Notes: generated from the letters alone by a model not told the origin. Counted from the stretch's first letter, positions 42,787 through 48,612 are shown. The stretch: DNA of 64,000 nt from Thermoplasmatales archaeon (GCA_012520845.1 JAAYNL010000015.1:62001-126000), one strand, 5' to 3'. Made by a program: numbers and translations.

Positions 42787-42981
42787 TTAAAGCACGAGCC
42801 AAACGACGACGAGGACGGCAACCGCCAGAACGATGCCGCCCCAGAACAGGGCGTCCTTCCTTCTGGTCCTTTTCCTTTCCGCGAAAAAGTCCTCGGCGCA
42901 TTCCGGCCCGCAGAAGTCGGCGCCCTCGGCGCAGGGCCAGCCACAGGCGAGGCAGTGGGAGTGTTCCGGCAGCTTAGGCAT
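42787..42981 (-). CDS. Small DUF2116-type zinc-ribbon membrane protein
   Basis: 64 residues. MPKLPEHSHCLACG, then FCGPEC, gives a four-cysteine zinc ribbon, followed by a basic stretch (ERKRTRRKD) and one C-terminal transmembrane helix (FWGGIVLAVAVLVVVWLVL). The ATG at 42981 is favoured because family members begin MPKLPEHSHC and a T-rich TATA-like element lies about 27 bp upstream; an ATG at 43002 adds seven residues. It is divergent from the ubiquitin-like operon and close enough to share its promoter region. The topology puts the zinc ribbon in the cytoplasm. Function unknown. Confidence 0.72.
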   Translation of the reverse strand: MPKLPEHSHCLACGWPCAEGADFCGPECAEDFFAERKRTRRKDALFWGGIVLAVAVLVVVWLVL

Positions 42982-43046
42982 ACCGCGCAATCCCGTGGCC
43001 ATTACAAAAAAGTAACCATTATCACGCCCGATCGGGATTCGCGAGC

Positions 43047-43805
43047 GTGATCAGGGTCGGGCAGCACGACGAGGACCGCTTCGACCGCATGAGGCGGGTC
43101 CCGTGGGTGGACATGGACGGCATATCGTCTTCCAGGGTATTGGTCGTCGGGGCGGGGGCCCTGGGCAACGAGGCGGTGAAGAATCTGGTCCTCGCCGGGT
43201 TCCGGGACGTGACGGTTCTGGACATGGACCATGTCGTCGCGTCCAACCTGAGCAGGTGCGTCTTTTTCCGCGACTCTGACGTTGGAGGGGGCATGAAAAC
43301 GGAGATAGTCGCGGCGAGGGCATCCGAGCTGGACCCTTCCGCCCGCATCAAACCGCTGGTCGGCAGGGTGCAGGATCTGGAAGACTGGGACTACGATGTC
43401 GCTCTCGGCTGCCTGGACAACGTGGCCGCCCGCCTCCACCTCAATTCGCACGCCTATTTCCATGGCGTACCGTACGTCGACGGCGCCACCGACGGTTTCC
43501 GCGGCAAGGTGCAGACCGTCCTTCCCGGCGGGCCCTGCCTGCAGTGCGTCATGAACCGCTCCCACGCCCGCATCGCGGAGGTGAGGTTCTCCTGCACCGG
43601 GAATAAAACGGGCTTCGTGCCCAAGATGGCCGCCGACATAACCACGACGGCGGTCGTCGCGGCGATCCAGGCGAGGGAGGCGATCAAAATAGCCTCGGGG
43701 AAGGCGGAAATGTGCATAAAGCACGTCACTTATTATAACGGCGAGAACAATGAGTCATTCACGCTGGAGGCCCGCATAGGGAAGGACTGCGTGAACCACG
43801 GGTGA
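43047..43805 (+). CDS. E1-like ubiquitin-activating enzyme (ThiF/UBA family)
   Basis: 252 residues. Adenylates the C-terminal glycine of the modifier encoded next. ATP-binding GAGALGNE at 35-42, LDMD (59-62) and NLSR (67-70) as in E1/ThiF/MoeB, CLDN at 122-125, a CxxC at 164-167, and SCTGNKTG with Cys183 as the candidate thioester cysteine, in the position of the ACT(L/I)-type motif of eukaryotic E1 subunits. The GTG at 43047 is the only suitable start. First gene of a four-gene operon with the modifier, an E2 and a JAMM protease, which argues against a thiamine or molybdopterin role. Confidence 0.85.
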   Translation: MIRVGQHDEDRFDRMRRVPWVDMDGISSSRVLVVGAGALGNEAVKNLVLAGFRDVTVLDMDHVVASNLSRCVFFRDSDVGGGMKTEIVAARASELDPSARIKPLVGRVQDLEDWDYDVALGCLDNVAARLHLNSHAYFHGVPYVDGATDGFRGKVQTVLPGGPCLQCVMNRSHARIAEVRFSCTGNKTGFVPKMAADITTTAVVAAIQAREAIKIASGKAEMCIKHVTYYNGENNESFTLEARIGKDCVNHG

Positions 43806-43810
43806 TTTGC

Positions 43811-44050
43811 ATGAAGATTACGGTTAGGAACGTGGCCGACGGCTCGACCATCAGGATGGAGGTCGCGCCCGGGGACACGGTGGCGGACATAATCGACAGC
43901 GCGGCCGAGTTCTGGGGCAGGGACGCCGGCGCGTACGTCATAAAGAAGGGCAAGACGATACTCGACGGCGGCGATTCCGCCACCGAGGCGAACCTCATGG
44001 ACGGGGACGTCCTGGAGATGATCCCCGACCCGGAGGGCGGCGGCGGATGA
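43811..44050 (+). CDS. Ubiquitin-like beta-grasp modifier ending in Gly-Gly
   Basis: 79 residues. Beta-grasp pattern: MKITVRNV and TIRMEVAPGDTVADIIDSA, then AYVIKKGKTILDG, then LMDGDVLEMIPDPEGGGG. The protein terminates exactly at four glycines, so no proteolytic trimming is needed to expose the reactive C-terminus. GGTGAT just before ATG 43811 supports this start; a GTG at 43802 would add three residues. It lies between the E1 and E2 genes, and its TGA overlaps the E2 start. ThiS or MoaD are alternatives by fold, but the E2 neighbour makes a protein modifier far more likely. Confidence 0.87.
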   Translation: MKITVRNVADGSTIRMEVAPGDTVADIIDSAAEFWGRDAGAYVIKKGKTILDGGDSATEANLMDGDVLEMIPDPEGGGG

Positions 44051-44526
44051 GCCTGCCGAGGCCCGTTCTGCTGAGGCGCCTGTCGAACGAGCTGAGGATG
44101 TGCTCCGAGTACACCGGGGCGGATTTCTCGTTCGACCCTGATACCGTTTCCTTCCCCATGGAGATCGACATGCGCATGAGCAACGTCGTCGCCTACTCCG
44201 CCCCGGGGGAGGTGGCCACGGACCACGGCTTCACCATAATCGTCACCGAGGAATACGGCGAGAGGAAACCCGAGGTCAGGTGGAGGACGCCGATATTCCA
44301 CCCGAACATAATGTCGCCGGAGGACGGCGGCTACGTCTGCATCAAGCTGTTGAACGAATGGTCGTTCGGCACCACGCTCCTGTCCTTCCTGAAGGGCATC
44401 GAGTCCCTCGTTGCGGGGCCGAACCCGGACGACCCCTTCGGCACCGAGTCCTGCCTCGCCGCCGCGAAGTACGTGAAGGAAAACCCGGCCGGGTTCTCGG
44501 CCAGCGTCAGCTACCAGAGCAAATGA
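44047..44526 (+). CDS. E2-like ubiquitin-conjugating enzyme
   Basis: 159 residues. The UBC fold is plain: WRTPIFHPNI with the His-Pro-Asn at 85-87, then GGYVCIKLLNEWSFGTTLLSFLKGIESL, in which Cys98 is the catalytic cysteine and Trp105 the conserved tryptophan, and PNPDDPF as in the GPNPDDPL motif after the active site of eukaryotic E2s. All core landmarks are present. Start ATG overlaps the modifier stop, and its own stop overlaps the JAMM gene start, so expression is coupled. No RING E3 gene is seen nearby. Confidence 0.9.
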   Translation: MSLPRPVLLRRLSNELRMCSEYTGADFSFDPDTVSFPMEIDMRMSNVVAYSAPGEVATDHGFTIIVTEEYGERKPEVRWRTPIFHPNIMSPEDGGYVCIKLLNEWSFGTTLLSFLKGIESLVAGPNPDDPFGTESCLAAAKYVKENPAGFSASVSYQSK

Positions 44527-45029
44527 CCCCCAGGATACTGTCCTCGTCCAAGGCGGAAATCGTCGAGAGGCCCAGGAGGGTGCCCAACGCGGACTTCTTC
44601 GTGCCCTCCGGCATGGTCGACCTCATGGTGGACCACGCCGAGGCTGGCCTGTCGGAGAACGTGGAGGTGCTGGGTCTCATCGTCGGCAGGTTCTACAGGG
44701 ACGCCGACGGCGTCTACGCCGTGGCCGAGCGGGTAATCAGCGTGCCCACCGTCGGCGACGAGTTCAGCGTCGCCATTTGCGAATCCGGGCAGCCGGAGCT
44801 GGTGGACGCGATGGACGACCTAGCCGAGGGCGAGGCCGTGGTGGGCTGGTACCATTCCCACCTCGGGATAGGGTGCTTCATGTCCGACACCGACGTAAGG
44901 ACCCAGGACGGGCTTTTCGGCGGGGAGTGCGGATTCGCCGTCGTCGTCGATCCGGTGAAGGGGGAACTGGCGTTCTTCGACAGCAACCCCGGGGAACCCA
45001 TGCCTGCCCGCACCATAATAATGGAATGA
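44523..45029 (+). CDS. JAMM/MPN+ isopeptidase (Rpn11-like)
   Basis: 168 residues. The complete zinc-protease motif is present: Glu48 in NVEVLGLIVGRF, His111 and His113 in YHSHLGIGCFMSDTD, Ser121 and Asp124. The spacing HxH-x7-SxxD is exact. Would remove the modifier from targets or recycle conjugates. ATG 44523 overlaps the E2 TGA. It ends 1 bp from the convergent hxlB gene, closing the operon. Confidence 0.9.
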   Translation: MTPRILSSSKAEIVERPRRVPNADFFVPSGMVDLMVDHAEAGLSENVEVLGLIVGRFYRDADGVYAVAERVISVPTVGDEFSVAICESGQPELVDAMDDLAEGEAVVGWYHSHLGIGCFMSDTDVRTQDGLFGGECGFAVVVDPVKGELAFFDSNPGEPMPARTIIME

Positions 45030-45572
45030 TCAGACCCAGATGGCGTGCCTTTTGCGCATGTCCGCCTCGGTCTTGCCCAGTTTCTTCATGATGCAGGGGA
45101 CGACGCTGTCGAAGAACAGGACGACGGTGTCCTCGAACAGGGTGCCAAGCGGGGCGTACTCCGCGGCCTCGGGGCCGCCGTTGACGGGGATGTGGATCAC
45201 TGTGTTGGACGCGTGGGCGAGCTTGCTGTGCTTTTTGGACGTGACGCAGACGACGTGGGAACCCATCCTCCTGGCTATGTTCGCCGTCTGCACCGTCGAC
45301 ACGGTCTCGCCGGTGTTGGAAACCAGGACCGTGAGATCCTCCTTGCCGATTATCGGCGTGGTCATGTCCCCGACGAAGTGGACGTCCAGCCCCAGCTGGA
45401 CGAGCCTGACGGCGAAGAACTGCCCGACCAGCCCGGACCTGCCGGAGCCGTAGATGAAGATCTTCCTTTTCCCCAGGAGCAGGTCCACGAAGCCGTTCTG
45501 GTCCTCCTCGGTGACGGAGGCGATGGACTTGCTGATTTCCCCAACGAGGAAGTCGAGGGAGTTGGTCCTCAT
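45030..45572 (-). CDS. hxlB: 6-phospho-3-hexuloisomerase
   Basis: 180 residues, a SIS-domain sugar isomerase: KIFIYGSGRSGLVGQ, LVSNTGETVSTV, and the C-terminal MRKRHAIWV, the position of the RHANLE motif of the PHI family. In archaea it works with 3-hexulose-6-phosphate synthase (or a fused Fae) in the ribulose monophosphate pathway to make pentoses; that partner is not here, but rpiA is at 56846. Overlaps the upstream TIM-barrel gene by 4 bp. Confidence 0.86.
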   Translation of the reverse strand: MRTNSLDFLVGEISKSIASVTEEDQNGFVDLLLGKRKIFIYGSGRSGLVGQFFAVRLVQLGLDVHFVGDMTTPIIGKEDLTVLVSNTGETVSTVQTANIARRMGSHVVCVTSKKHSKLAHASNTVIHIPVNGGPEAAEYAPLGTLFEDTVVLFFDSVVPCIMKKLGKTEADMRKRHAIWV

Positions 45573-46630
45573 TCCTTCTCTTCCGCGGCGGCCGCCTTGG
45601 CGGCCTCCTCGGCCTCCTTCCTCTGCTGCCTGAGCCTCTTGGCGACCATCCTGTTGAGCACCCTCTCGTAGATGACGCGCATGTACATCGCGTCGTGTTC
45701 CAGGAGCGGTGACGCGGAAATCACGTCAAGTTCCGGCCTGGCGTCGACCAGGTACTCGGCGAACGTCTCGAACTTCAGGTCGCCCTTTTTGATGGGCGTG
45801 AGGCGGGGCATCGGGCCGCCGTACTCGACGCCGGAGAAGATCGTGTGGACCCTGCCGCCCGAGTAGGGCGAGACCATGTCGACGAGGTCGGCGAAGTCGT
45901 CCGCCTCGAAGAGGCCGCCGGCGGTGCGGGCATGGTGGTTGGCGAAGTTCACCACGGGCACCAGCCCGTCTATCTCGCCGCAGAGTTCCAGCACCTGCTC
46001 CACGGAACCGAAGACCTGCTCGTGCCCCGTAATCTCTATGCCGAGCCTGGGCTTGAAGCCGCAGTCCTTCCACCATTCCATGAGGCCGGCGACGTTCTCG
46101 CGGATGTTCCCGTCGATTTCGTCGTCCGGCAACTCGCCGGTGTAGACGCCCAGGTTGGTGACCACGGTGCTCCCGCCGAGGGCGTCCGTGAGGAAGGCGG
46201 CCCTCTGCAGGTTGGCGATGCCGTCGTCGGTGAGTTCGTGGTTGCTGCCCAGGTCGATGTAGTGCGGGGTCCTCATGGAGAGGCTGACGTCGAGCCTCCT
46301 GGCCATCTTGCCTATCTTGAACAGGTCGCCGGTCCTGTTGGCGATCCAGGAGAATGCCTGGACGAGGGTGTCGTCCTCCTCAATCGGTTCGTTGACGTCG
46401 AATATGGACTCCCCGTCCCTGATTATTTCGACGACGAAGGCGTCCTCCTCGAATTCCATGAGGGTCCTGCCGACCTCGTCGTCGTAGTCCGCGGGGCGCT
46501 CCATCACGCTGGAGAGTATCATGGGGATCTGCATCGCTGTCAGGCTGAGGTTGTGGACGTCCTCTATGCCGTCCGTCAATGTCCGCCCCTTGCAGGAAAG
46601 AGGGATGCCGGCTGGGCCAAACCTAATCAT
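45569..46630 (-). CDS. Endonuclease IV-like / xylose-isomerase-like TIM-barrel protein
   Basis: 353 residues. A TIM barrel with candidate metal ligands in MRTPHYIDLGS, LGIEITGHEQVFG, PVVNFANHHAR and VHTIFSGVEY. Similar archaeal proteins are annotated as AP endonuclease family 2 or deoxyribonuclease IV. A charged, alanine/glutamate-rich tail (KRLRQQRKEAEEAAKAAA) is predicted to be coiled. A repair role is not certain, since this superfamily also contains sugar isomerases, and it shares an operon with hxlB. A TATA-like CATTAAATACC lies near 46661. Confidence 0.65.
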   Translation of the reverse strand: MIRFGPAGIPLSCKGRTLTDGIEDVHNLSLTAMQIPMILSSVMERPADYDDEVGRTLMEFEEDAFVVEIIRDGESIFDVNEPIEEDDTLVQAFSWIANRTGDLFKIGKMARRLDVSLSMRTPHYIDLGSNHELTDDGIANLQRAAFLTDALGGSTVVTNLGVYTGELPDDEIDGNIRENVAGLMEWWKDCGFKPRLGIEITGHEQVFGSVEQVLELCGEIDGLVPVVNFANHHARTAGGLFEADDFADLVDMVSPYSGGRVHTIFSGVEYGGPMPRLTPIKKGDLKFETFAEYLVDARPELDVISASPLLEHDAMYMRVIYERVLNRMVAKRLRQQRKEAEEAAKAAAAEEKE

Positions 46631-46778
46631 AATGAACCCCTTGGCTCGGTATCGGCTCTAGGTATTTAATGGGTGTTCGGTTCCCAAGCGCGCGATTAAT
46701 GTGCGGAAACATCGTTTTTCCACGTCGCCGGCGCGGGGAAAACGCAGCGCCCATTGTGGGAAACGGGGTTTCTGGGAC

Positions 46779-47126
46779 ATGGTCTGCATCTACTGCAAGA
46801 AGGAGGTTCCCGGCGATTACTGCTGCGAGAAACACAGGGAAGCCTGCGGGCGGTGGCTCGAACACGTCGAGAAATGGAAGTACGTTTTCTTGGCCTGCCT
46901 CGCCATATCCCTGGTAGCGGGCCTCGCCCTCCTGGCGTTCACGCAAAGCCACTTCCCGTTCCTGGTGATGATCGGCGGGGCCGGGGCCACCATCCTTGTT
47001 TTCCCGTTCACCACGCCGGAAACCGCCACGGCGCTCGGGCTCAGAAAATCCATAGCTTTGGGCAGGTGGATCGGCGTCGCCTTCGTTGCCGTGGCGGCGG
47101 TGGACGCGTTGTGCCGCTTTGTTTGA
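46779..47126 (+). CDS. Small zinc-ribbon membrane protein of unknown function
   Basis: 115 residues. MVCIYCKKEVPGDYCCEKH gives a CxxC...CC zinc-ribbon-like N-terminus, then two hydrophobic segments (VFLACLAISLVAGLALLAF and MIGGAGATILVFPF) and a third near the C-terminus (WIGVAFVAVAAVDALC). The ATG at 46779 is chosen because the in-frame upstream residues are low-complexity and unlike protein. Not recognised; the zinc-ribbon-plus-membrane architecture recurs at 42787-42981 and 52056-52697. Confidence 0.6.
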   Translation: MVCIYCKKEVPGDYCCEKHREACGRWLEHVEKWKYVFLACLAISLVAGLALLAFTQSHFPFLVMIGGAGATILVFPFTTPETATALGLRKSIALGRWIGVAFVAVAAVDALCRFV

Positions 47127-47157
47127 AGCCTTGCGCACGGGCGATTCGTGTCGCATA

Positions 47158-47202
47158 CCTTTATAAGCAAGACCCGCATTGGGCGTTTACCCAATGTCGG
47201 GA
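47158..47202 (+). promoter_or_regulatory. Promoter and start-site dyad of the L18e-L13-S9-RpoN operon
   Basis: TATA box CTTTATAAG at about 47158-47166. A strong dyad follows: CCCG-CATTGGG (47173-47183), loop CGTTTA, CCCAATG-T-CGGG (47190-47201). The predicted transcription start (about 25 bp from TATA) falls within it, so it may be a DNA operator; if the start is earlier it would be an RNA hairpin ahead of the GGAG at 47200. Confidence 0.5.
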
Positions 47203-47213
47203 GAGTCAGAAAC

Positions 47214-47576
47214 ATGAGCAGGAATCTCAAAACCGATCCGACCCTCGTCGCCCTGATCGACAGGCTCAAGGCGAAGGAGAGGGAAACCGGCGCGGCCGTC
47301 TGGCGAGACATTGCGAAGAGGCTGGAGAAGCCCAGGAAGAACTGGGCCGAGACCAACCTGAGCAAACTCGAGAGGTATGCCAACGAGGGCGACGTCATAA
47401 TCGTCCCGGGCAAGGTCCTCGCCGCCGGCGACCTGAGCAAGAAGATAACCGTAGCTGCGTACAGCTTCTCCGACGCGGCCAGGAGCGCGATCGTCGCCTC
47501 CGGCGGCAAGGCGATGAGGATAGAGCAGCTGATGGACGAGAACCCAAACGGTTCCAAGGTCAGGATACTGAGGTGA
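47214..47576 (+). CDS. rpl18e: Large ribosomal subunit protein L18e (eL18)
   Basis: 120 residues, usual archaeal length. MSRNLKTDPTLVALIDRLK and KPRKNWAETNLSKLERYANEGD, then VPGKVLAAGDLSKKITVAAYSFS, are typical. First gene of the conserved archaeal rpl18e-rpl13-rps9-rpoN cluster. The ATG at 47214 follows GGAG at a slightly long spacing; upstream in-frame residues are not conserved. Confidence 0.96.
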   Translation: MSRNLKTDPTLVALIDRLKAKERETGAAVWRDIAKRLEKPRKNWAETNLSKLERYANEGDVIIVPGKVLAAGDLSKKITVAAYSFSDAARSAIVASGGKAMRIEQLMDENPNGSKVRILR

Positions 47577-47581
47577 GCGGC

Positions 47582-48007
47582 GTGGTCACTATCATAGATG
47601 GAACGGACGCCGTCATGGGCAGGCTGGCCACGACCGTGGCGGAGAGGATAATGGAAGGCGAGCAGATCGTCGTGGTCAACGCCGAGAAGATCCTCGTCAC
47701 CGGCAAGAAGGAGATGGTGTTCGCCAGGTACAAGTTCAAGGACGAGCTGGGCGAGACCAATTCCAGGAAGGGCCCCTTCTATCCCCGCAGGGCCGACCTG
47801 ATCTTCAAGAGCACGGTCAGGGGCATGATCCCCTGGAAGAAGACCTCCGGCAGGGAGGCATACAGGAGGCTCACCGTCTACGTGAGCGTCCCCGAGCAGT
47901 ACAGCGGCTCCGCGACGGAGCGCCCCGAGCAGGCCCTCAAGTCGATCGGTTGCAAATACACGTCCCTGGGTTCCGTAGCGAAATACCTGGGTTCGAGGGT
48001 AAGGTGA
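47582..48007 (+). CDS. rpl13: Large ribosomal subunit protein L13 (uL13)
   Basis: 141 residues. Begins [23 protein letters not shown] from a GTG at 47582; GGTGA at 47572 is well placed for it, while an in-frame GTG at 47573 overlaps the L18e stop and is a less likely start. [14 protein letters not shown] and [18 protein letters not shown] are L13 hallmarks. Second gene of the ribosomal operon. Confidence 0.96.
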
Positions 48008-48011
48008 TCCC

Positions 48012-48410
48012 ATGGAAAACGTGAACACGAGCGGCAAGAGGAAGACCGCCATAGCCAGGGCGGTCGTCAAGGAAGGCACTGGCAGGGTGACCATCAACAA
48101 GGTCCCCATCGAGATGTACAACCCCGAGCTGGCGAGGCTCAAGATACAGGAGCCCCTGAACCTGGTCCCGGACAAGGCGTCCAAGGTGGACATCAGGGTC
48201 AACGTCAGCGGCGGCGGCGTCATGGGCCAGGCATCCGCGGTCAGGACCGCCATAGCCAGGGGCATGGTGGACTTCTTCAAGGACGACGAGATGAAGGCCA
48301 TGTTCAAGGAATACGACAGGACCCTGCTGATAAACGACGCGCGCAGGAAGCTCCCGAAGAAGCCCATGGGCCCGGGCGCCCGCGCCAGGAAGCAGAAGTC
48401 CTACCGCTGA
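48012..48410 (+). CDS. rps9: Small ribosomal subunit protein S9 (uS9)
   Basis: 132 residues. The N-terminal [19 protein letters not shown], internal [20 protein letters not shown], and the basic C-terminus ARKQKSYR ending in the invariant arginine that reaches the decoding centre are all present. Stop lies 10 bp before rpoN. Confidence 0.97.
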
Positions 48411-48420
48411 GGCGATTCGA

Positions 48421-48612
48421 ATGATAATACCCGTGAGATGTTTCACGTGCGGCAAGGTCGTCGGGTCCGCGTACCCGGAGTACGCCAGGCGCGTGAGCAT
48501 GGGCGAATCCCCCGAGAAGGTCCTCGACGAGATCGGCCTGGAGAGGTACTGCTGCCGCAGGATGATAATCTCCCACGCCGACCTCATCAAGGAAGTCCTC
48601 CCCCTGGGATAA
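48421..48612 (+). CDS. rpoN: DNA-directed RNA polymerase subunit N (Rpo10)
   Basis: 63 residues. Zinc-binding [15 protein letters not shown], and YCCRRMI near the C-terminus, complete the atypical CX2C...CC site of RpoN/RPB10. Last gene of the ribosomal operon, followed by a strong terminator hairpin. Confidence 0.97.

Follow-up and report, generated by a model that had tools for sequence, protein, structure and literature searches.

A 64,000-nucleotide stretch of the genome of a Thermoplasmatales archaeon (GCA_012520845.1, JAAYNL010000015.1:62001-126000; hereafter the window) contains a tightly packed operon of four genes, at 43047-45029 on the plus strand, which likely serves a ubiquitin-like E1-E2-RING conjugation cycle that is reversed by a JAMM protease and is probably linked to the proteasome. 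An operon of this kind was proposed in a first-pass annotation of the window, and all four genes are present, three of them with Pfam assignments: a ThiF-type E1 (43047-43805; GTG start, 252 aa; ThiF PF00899, 4.6e-44), a Gly-Gly modifier (43811-44050; ATG start, 79 aa, with an alternative GTG start at 43802), an E2 (44047-44526; 159 aa; UQ_con PF00179, 1.3e-12), and a JAMM protein (44523-45029; 168 aa; JAB PF01398, 7e-13). The E1 and modifier genes are separated by five bases, and the modifier/E2 and E2/JAMM junctions are ATGA overlaps. The first-pass annotation gave the operon as spanning 42787-45029, but only the part from 43047 onwards belongs to it, and 42787-43002 is a separate minus-strand gene coding for a DUF2116 protein. 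Named relatives matched by E2 alignment belong to the Methanomassiliicoccales (Methanomethylophilaceae, Methanoplasma, and Methanomassiliicoccus) and to other Thermoplasmata/Thermoplasmatota, and we therefore assign the window to the Methanomassiliicoccales; the host is presumably a gut-type methanogen of this order. Its genome (G000) is represented by 1.38 Mb in 27 contigs and is 94% complete.

The E1 carries the GAGALGNE nucleotide loop and the candidate catalytic residue Cys183 (codon 43593-43595) recognized in the first-pass annotation, and both Cys183 and a zinc set formed by C164, C167, C248, and H251 are invariant among the relatives. The E1 profile matches the adenylation domains of the eukaryotic ubiquitin, NEDD8, and SUMO E1s, and aligns with MoeB, ThiF, and UBA5 from end to end over its full length, showing that it has neither a separate catalytic-Cys domain nor an E2-recruiting ubiquitin-fold domain. 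We take the position of Cys183 to be the crossover-loop Cys site of MoeB/ThiF/UBA5-type enzymes, which the alignment tried did not span. A second, distant ThiF-family protein is encoded elsewhere in the same genome (C3:37643-38077).

The E2 contains an HPN motif (residues 85-87), Cys98 (codon 44338-44340), and Trp105, all of which are invariant among the relatives; HPN and Cys98 had been named in the first-pass annotation. The E2 profile aligns with UBE2A/Rad6 such that Cys98 falls on the UBE2A active Cys, although the loop from HPN to Cys is three residues longer than that of UBE2A, and Trp105 is followed by SFxS/T where UBE2A has SPT; in eukaryotic E2s the loop after this Trp helps RING binding. 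The proposal that this protein is an E2 depended on its having a ubiquitin-conjugating (UBC) fold, and an AlphaFold2 (AF2) model (predicted local distance difference test, pLDDT, 89) supports this, with E2s making up all of the top 50 fold matches at a probability of 1.00. The JAMM protein has the motif GWYHSH-x7-S-x2-D, which is Rpn11/CSN5-like, and the catalytic set named in the first-pass annotation (Glu48, His111, His113, Ser121, and Asp124) is, together with S112, invariant among the relatives. When its profile is compared with the PDB, yeast Rpn11 is the best match (5e-28), followed by CsRpn11 (9e-23) and CSN5 (5e-21).

The modifier was described as ending exactly in GGGG, which is correct as far as the letters go, but the conserved pair is G76-G77 (codons 44036-44041) at the end of the sequence PDPEGG, and the last two glycines constitute a variable tail. 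PDPEGG (or PEGG) is present in 74 of the 75 modifiers of E2-bearing loci (the named loci plus the window), the exception (L063) being a cut frame. The second Gly is the last residue of 36 modifiers, and the other 38 continue for 1-10 additional, unconserved residues; the presence of such tails in about half of the modifiers implies maturation, and a conserved Gly-Gly followed by an unconserved tail has the appearance of a modifier that is trimmed. The AF2 model of the modifier (pLDDT 91.8) has ubiquitin as its best fold match, with template modelling (TM) scores of 0.84-0.89, and Hub1, NEDD8, and CsUb (the last at rank 27) are also among the top 50, which include no ThiS/MoaD entry. The possibility raised at the outset, that the modifier is instead a sulfur carrier of the ThiS/MoaD type, is thus not borne out by its predicted fold, and no ThiS/MoaD-family gene was found in the whole of genome G000, whereas such a gene is present in 11 of the 14 controls.

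The order-wide distribution of the system, its natural knock-outs, and the RING candidate described below are all invisible from the window alone. E2 is encoded in 50 of 61 genomes of the order, and the gene order E1-modifier-E2-JAMM is the same in all 30 loci read, as far as the contigs extend; in four of these (L007, L014, L018, and L021) a contig end removes or truncates E1, the modifier, or JAMM, and the E1 frame of one genome (G008, locus L022) contains a stop. Because the same genes occur in the same order in relatives whose E2s are as little as 43% identical, a chance arrangement can be excluded. The operon-type E1 is present in the E2-bearing genomes, apart from one with a contig end at this position, and is absent from all 11 of the E2-less genomes. 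Across the phylum, PF00179 is matched in 82 of 390 genomes (0/14 controls), and some of the more distant loci are arranged otherwise, several having no E1 within the short flank read. Nine loci in other Thermoplasmatota (L037, L039, L042, L045, L046, L048, L049, L053, and L059) have the modifier, E2, and JAMM genes, with no E1 in the short flank read upstream of the modifier.

Downstream of the operon, the named relatives have hxlB and TIM-barrel genes in convergent orientation, and beyond these the genes for L18e, the protein at the usual L13 position, S9, and a small rpoN-like protein. For each of the four operon proteins, distances are correlated with the L18e and S9 distances (30 loci; r 0.49-0.71, Mantel p=0.001). 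The operon is a vertically inherited core locus of the Methanomassiliicoccales in a housekeeping neighbourhood, and not a mobile defence island; this is a compact and ancient gene set for tagging.

The 11 E2-less genomes of the 61-genome set fall in five genera (g2, g3, g12, g19, and g23), and the system has likely been lost on four or five separate occasions. Relic modifiers are present in 14 of 21 E2-less genomes searched (12 in genus g3, one in g12, and one in g23), and none of the 14 retains the Gly-Gly, their ends reading PDPEAY, PDPDSD, PDPVLS, PDPEGF, LVHER, and similar. The association of Gly-Gly loss with loss of E1 and E2 is strong (Fisher 2e-16, 73 vs 14), with the 14 relics coming from only three lineages. 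Eleven JAMM-derived relics were aligned, nine from g3, where they lie beside the relic modifier, and two from g12, and all of them lack both active-site His residues and Glu48. Profile comparison links the g3 set to the operon JAMM profile at 2e-7, with an identity of only 15%, and the homology of this set to JAMM rests on that match and on position. The E1 relics of two g12 genomes have lost the stretch containing Cys183 and kept the zinc Cys residues. These patterns of loss indicate that the Gly-Gly and the chemistry of E1, E2, and JAMM stand or fall together.

Two observations on the relics themselves are of interest. At the g3 loci L158, L160-L168, and L170, which lack E1 and E2, the Gly-Gly-less modifier relic and the JAMM-like protein without active-site residues form a two-gene unit, and its retention across most of the genus suggests a non-covalent role. 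At L171 (G335) and L172 (G188) the E1 and JAMM relics are adjacent, with frames largely open, catalytic residues lost, and zinc Cys kept, and they appear to be pseudoenzymes in mid-decay.

A search with PF13639 for an E3 identified a RING-like protein in 24 of 41 genomes (0/14 controls). A profile built from the family itself (E<=1e-19) finds it in 48 of 50 E2-bearing genomes and in none of the 11 E2-less genomes (Fisher p=1.9e-10), in which there are only partial zinc-ribbon matches; the two E2-bearing genomes without a match are both 73% complete. Eight zinc ligands, in the pattern C-x2-C, C-x-C-x4-H-x2-C, C-x2-C, are conserved in 17 aligned members, one of which (L188) has one extra residue, and several of the proteins, when read by eye, begin with a hydrophobic stretch. 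The source genome encodes its copy outside the window, at G000:C6:4542-5063 (L177:3043-3564), where it is followed by pop5, psmA, SBDS, and exosome-type genes, the pop5, SBDS, and exosome-type labels being our own reading of the sequences. The RING-like gene lies upstream of psmA and in the same direction in 19 of the 20 loci read, usually with pop5 directly between them, and the twentieth locus stops at a contig edge. In G035, an E2-less genome in a single contig that was read in its entirety, pop5-psmA-SBDS is intact and no match to the RING pattern was found. The source genome also has proteasome alpha and beta subunits and a PAN-type ATPase domain. From the position of the RING-like gene upstream of psmA and its co-occurrence with E2, the simplest reading is that the RING-like protein is the E3 and that the system meets the proteasome; we regard the E3 assignment as fairly likely, and the proteasome link as about evenly balanced.

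Sequence, structure prediction, and comparative genomics show which parts are present, that their catalytic residues are invariant, and that the parts are inherited and decay together; each chemical step of the cycle is our inference. In modifiers with a tail, JAMM or another protease would expose the conserved Gly-Gly, and the 252-aa E1 would adenylate the modifier C-terminus and then presumably carry the modifier as a thioester on Cys183. The modifier would pass from E1 to Cys98 of E2, the apparently membrane-anchored RING-like protein would act as E3 in placing it on substrate amines, and JAMM would take it off again. The most likely use would be to turn over proteins in a regulated way, at the membrane or close to it, by means of the 20S proteasome and its AAA+ ATPase. 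A true E1-E2 relay, as suggested in the first-pass annotation, remains the best interpretation, the E2 having a UBC fold and the modifier being ubiquitin-like rather than of the ThiS/MoaD type. Of the two uses suggested there, turnover is strengthened by the RING-like gene upstream of psmA rather than by the PAC2-like gene of the window that was cited for it, and defence is weakened by the core neighbourhood and by the lack of PADLOC matches to the modifier, E2, and JAMM. It is possible, though on somewhat less than even terms, that a minimal but complete ubiquitin-proteasome pathway is present in the Methanomassiliicoccales and related Thermoplasmatota, with a membrane-bound RING E3 whose gene lies beside those of the 20S proteasome and an Rpn11-like JAMM at a PAN-20S particle; if so, the E1-E2-RING-Rpn11-proteasome logic exists in a lineage outside the Asgard archaea and Caldiarchaeum.

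Several points weigh against conjugation leading through a RING E3 to the proteasome. The single-sequence matches of the modifier are weak and mixed (PF00240, 19 bits with a cut-off of 25; SAMP1, 20 bits with a cut-off of 60), and the TM-scores of the E2 fold matches are moderate, at about 0.6. The E1 has no separate catalytic-Cys or E2-recruiting domain, leaving E2 docking unexplained. The RING-like protein exceeds the zf-RING_2 (PF13639) cut-off in only four of 41 genomes, all six of the proteins checked against Pfam fall below it, and the protein is possibly a treble clef with another role. E2-less lineages keep the proteasome, which therefore does not depend on the system, and the co-occurrence counts are not phylogenetically independent, since by genus they reduce to about five losses, perhaps four. 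In an alternative explanation, E1-E2 conjugation is real but the RING-like protein is not the E3 and there is no connection to the proteasome, the modifier serving as a reversible, non-degradative signal attached by E2 alone or with another E3. The absence of an E3 gene from the operon itself, the retention of psmA in E2-less genomes, and SFxS/T in place of the SPT of UBE2A in a loop that aids RING binding are all compatible with it. However, the RING gene has disappeared along with the operon in about five separate losses and sits upstream of psmA, and Rpn11 of the proteasome is the closest match to the JAMM; we consider a non-degradative signal a plausible but unlikely explanation.

Two further explanations are rejected. 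That this is a sulfur-carrier pathway of the ThiS/MoaD or Urm1-SAMP type, with an incidental E2-like protein, could be argued from the MoeB/ThiF size of the E1, its matches to those profiles (below cut-off), and a weak match of the modifier to moaD_arch, but it is extremely improbable given the conserved UBC-fold E2, the Rpn11-like JAMM, and ubiquitin as the best fold match of the modifier. Moreover, sulfur carriers end at their Gly-Gly, whereas tails are present here, and the Gly-Gly is lost where E1 and E2 are lost; it is on fold, E2, tails, and the behaviour of the relics that we discard this interpretation. Anti-phage defence of the Bil (BilABCD) or CBASS type is very improbable too, even though the operon resembles defence genes in its repeated loss, and bacterial Bil operons likewise combine UBL (ubiquitin-like modifier), E1, E2, and JAMM (PMC11354881). 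The PADLOC matches of E1 to E1-E2 and BilD models are weak, that to BilD (3e-8, over part of the model) being the only one among the BilA-D models, and none of the PADLOC models matches the modifier, E2, or JAMM. The synteny beside ribosomal genes is conserved, the protein distances follow those of ribosomal proteins, and the coupled RING gene lies upstream of psmA; Bil-type defence is rejected on the PADLOC results, the synteny, and the vertical inheritance.

The genes flanking the operon in the window include the syntenic anchors. Convergent with it are the genes for an HxlB-like SIS protein (45030-45572, - strand) and a xylose-isomerase-like TIM-barrel protein (45569-46630, - strand), whose clusters are represented in 61 and 59 loci, respectively, and beyond these are L18e, the gene at the L13 position, S9, and the small rpoN-like gene (47148-48612, + strand; clusters in 40-48 loci), L18e and S9 having been identified by NCBIfam. 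Small proteins with a zinc finger and a hydrophobic segment flank the operon region on both sides. One is the treble-clef DUF2116 protein (42787-43002, - strand; PF09889, 6.5e-13), which has a single hydrophobic segment, is encoded divergently outside the operon, and has a cluster represented in 24 named loci, mostly in divergent orientation; it was set aside as an E3 candidate, being divergent, recurring in only these 24 loci, and still present in two E2-less genomes (G015 and G002). The other is at 46701-47126 (+ strand), for which no Pfam match above cut-off was found.

To date, the proteins used to reconstitute archaeal E2-dependent ubiquitin-like conjugation have come from the uncultured Caldiarchaeum (PMC5654768). 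The system described here is inherited vertically throughout an order that has cultured members and was not known for such tagging. Sister lineages have lost E1, E2, RING, and the modifier Gly-Gly together, providing natural knock-outs. With these, and with a RING gene that is tied to the proteasome operon, the connection of archaeal ubiquitylation to the proteasome can be tested directly. The assembly of the eukaryotic pathway likewise becomes testable, and an almost eukaryote-like tagging system is opened to study.

Parts of this system have been noticed previously. In the available text of a 2015 study, the JAMM of M. luminyensis (WP_019177758), a member of this order, is identified as an Rpn11 orthologue with no mention of an operon (PMC4453063), and the available text of Fuchs et al. 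2018 describes a JAMM-3 group and reports that JAMMs nearer to Rpn11 share operons with homologues of Ub, E1, and E2, the taxa being unnamed (PMC6043591). By description, these are likewise Rpn11/CSN5-like prokaryotic JAMMs, but the available text of neither account (PMC4453063, PMC6043591) describes the modifier, the E2, the RING, the distribution, or the natural knock-outs. Grau-Bove et al. reported a single case among the Euryarchaeota, a marine group II genome with a UCH and RING domains (PMC4327156). Our literature search yielded no account of the Methanomassiliicoccales operon or its RING, although most subscription journals and all preprints were outside its scope and an earlier description is possible; as far as the 2015 text extends, it is the JAMM alone that was already known.

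Among characterized systems, bacterial Bil (BilABCD) and other UBL-E1-E2-JAB operons have the same four-gene set, but differ from the order-wide vertical inheritance in a housekeeping neighbourhood seen here. Archaeal SAMP/Urm1 systems (UbaA, SAMPs, and HvJAMM1) similarly use a ThiF-type E1, a Gly-Gly beta-grasp modifier, and a JAMM, but lack an E2, and the modifier, E1, and JAMM described here are far under the SAMP1, UbaA (90 of the 450 bits required), and desampylase (34 of 130 bits) cut-offs. The Caldiarchaeum subterraneum operon encodes CsUb, E1, E2, the srfp RING, and CsRpn11 (PMC5654768, PMC6043591), and the CsUb precursor is, in the text available, reported to be trimmed by CsRpn11 (PMC6043591). 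The Caldiarchaeum E1 is described as having a separate catalytic-Cys domain of ~60 aa (PMC11354881), whereas the E1 here is MoeB-sized, and the small srfp RING lies within the operon, whereas the RING here is unlinked, apparently membrane-anchored, and upstream of pop5-psmA; the two systems also belong to different archaeal phyla. With no separate Cys domain in its E1 and a RING outside the operon, the Methanomassiliicoccales system is not a strict member of this class, but it works like the Caldiarchaeum and Asgard ubiquitylation cascades, with which it shares a UBC-fold E2, a ubiquitin-fold Gly-Gly modifier with a removable tail, an Rpn11-like JAMM, and a RING-type E3 candidate.

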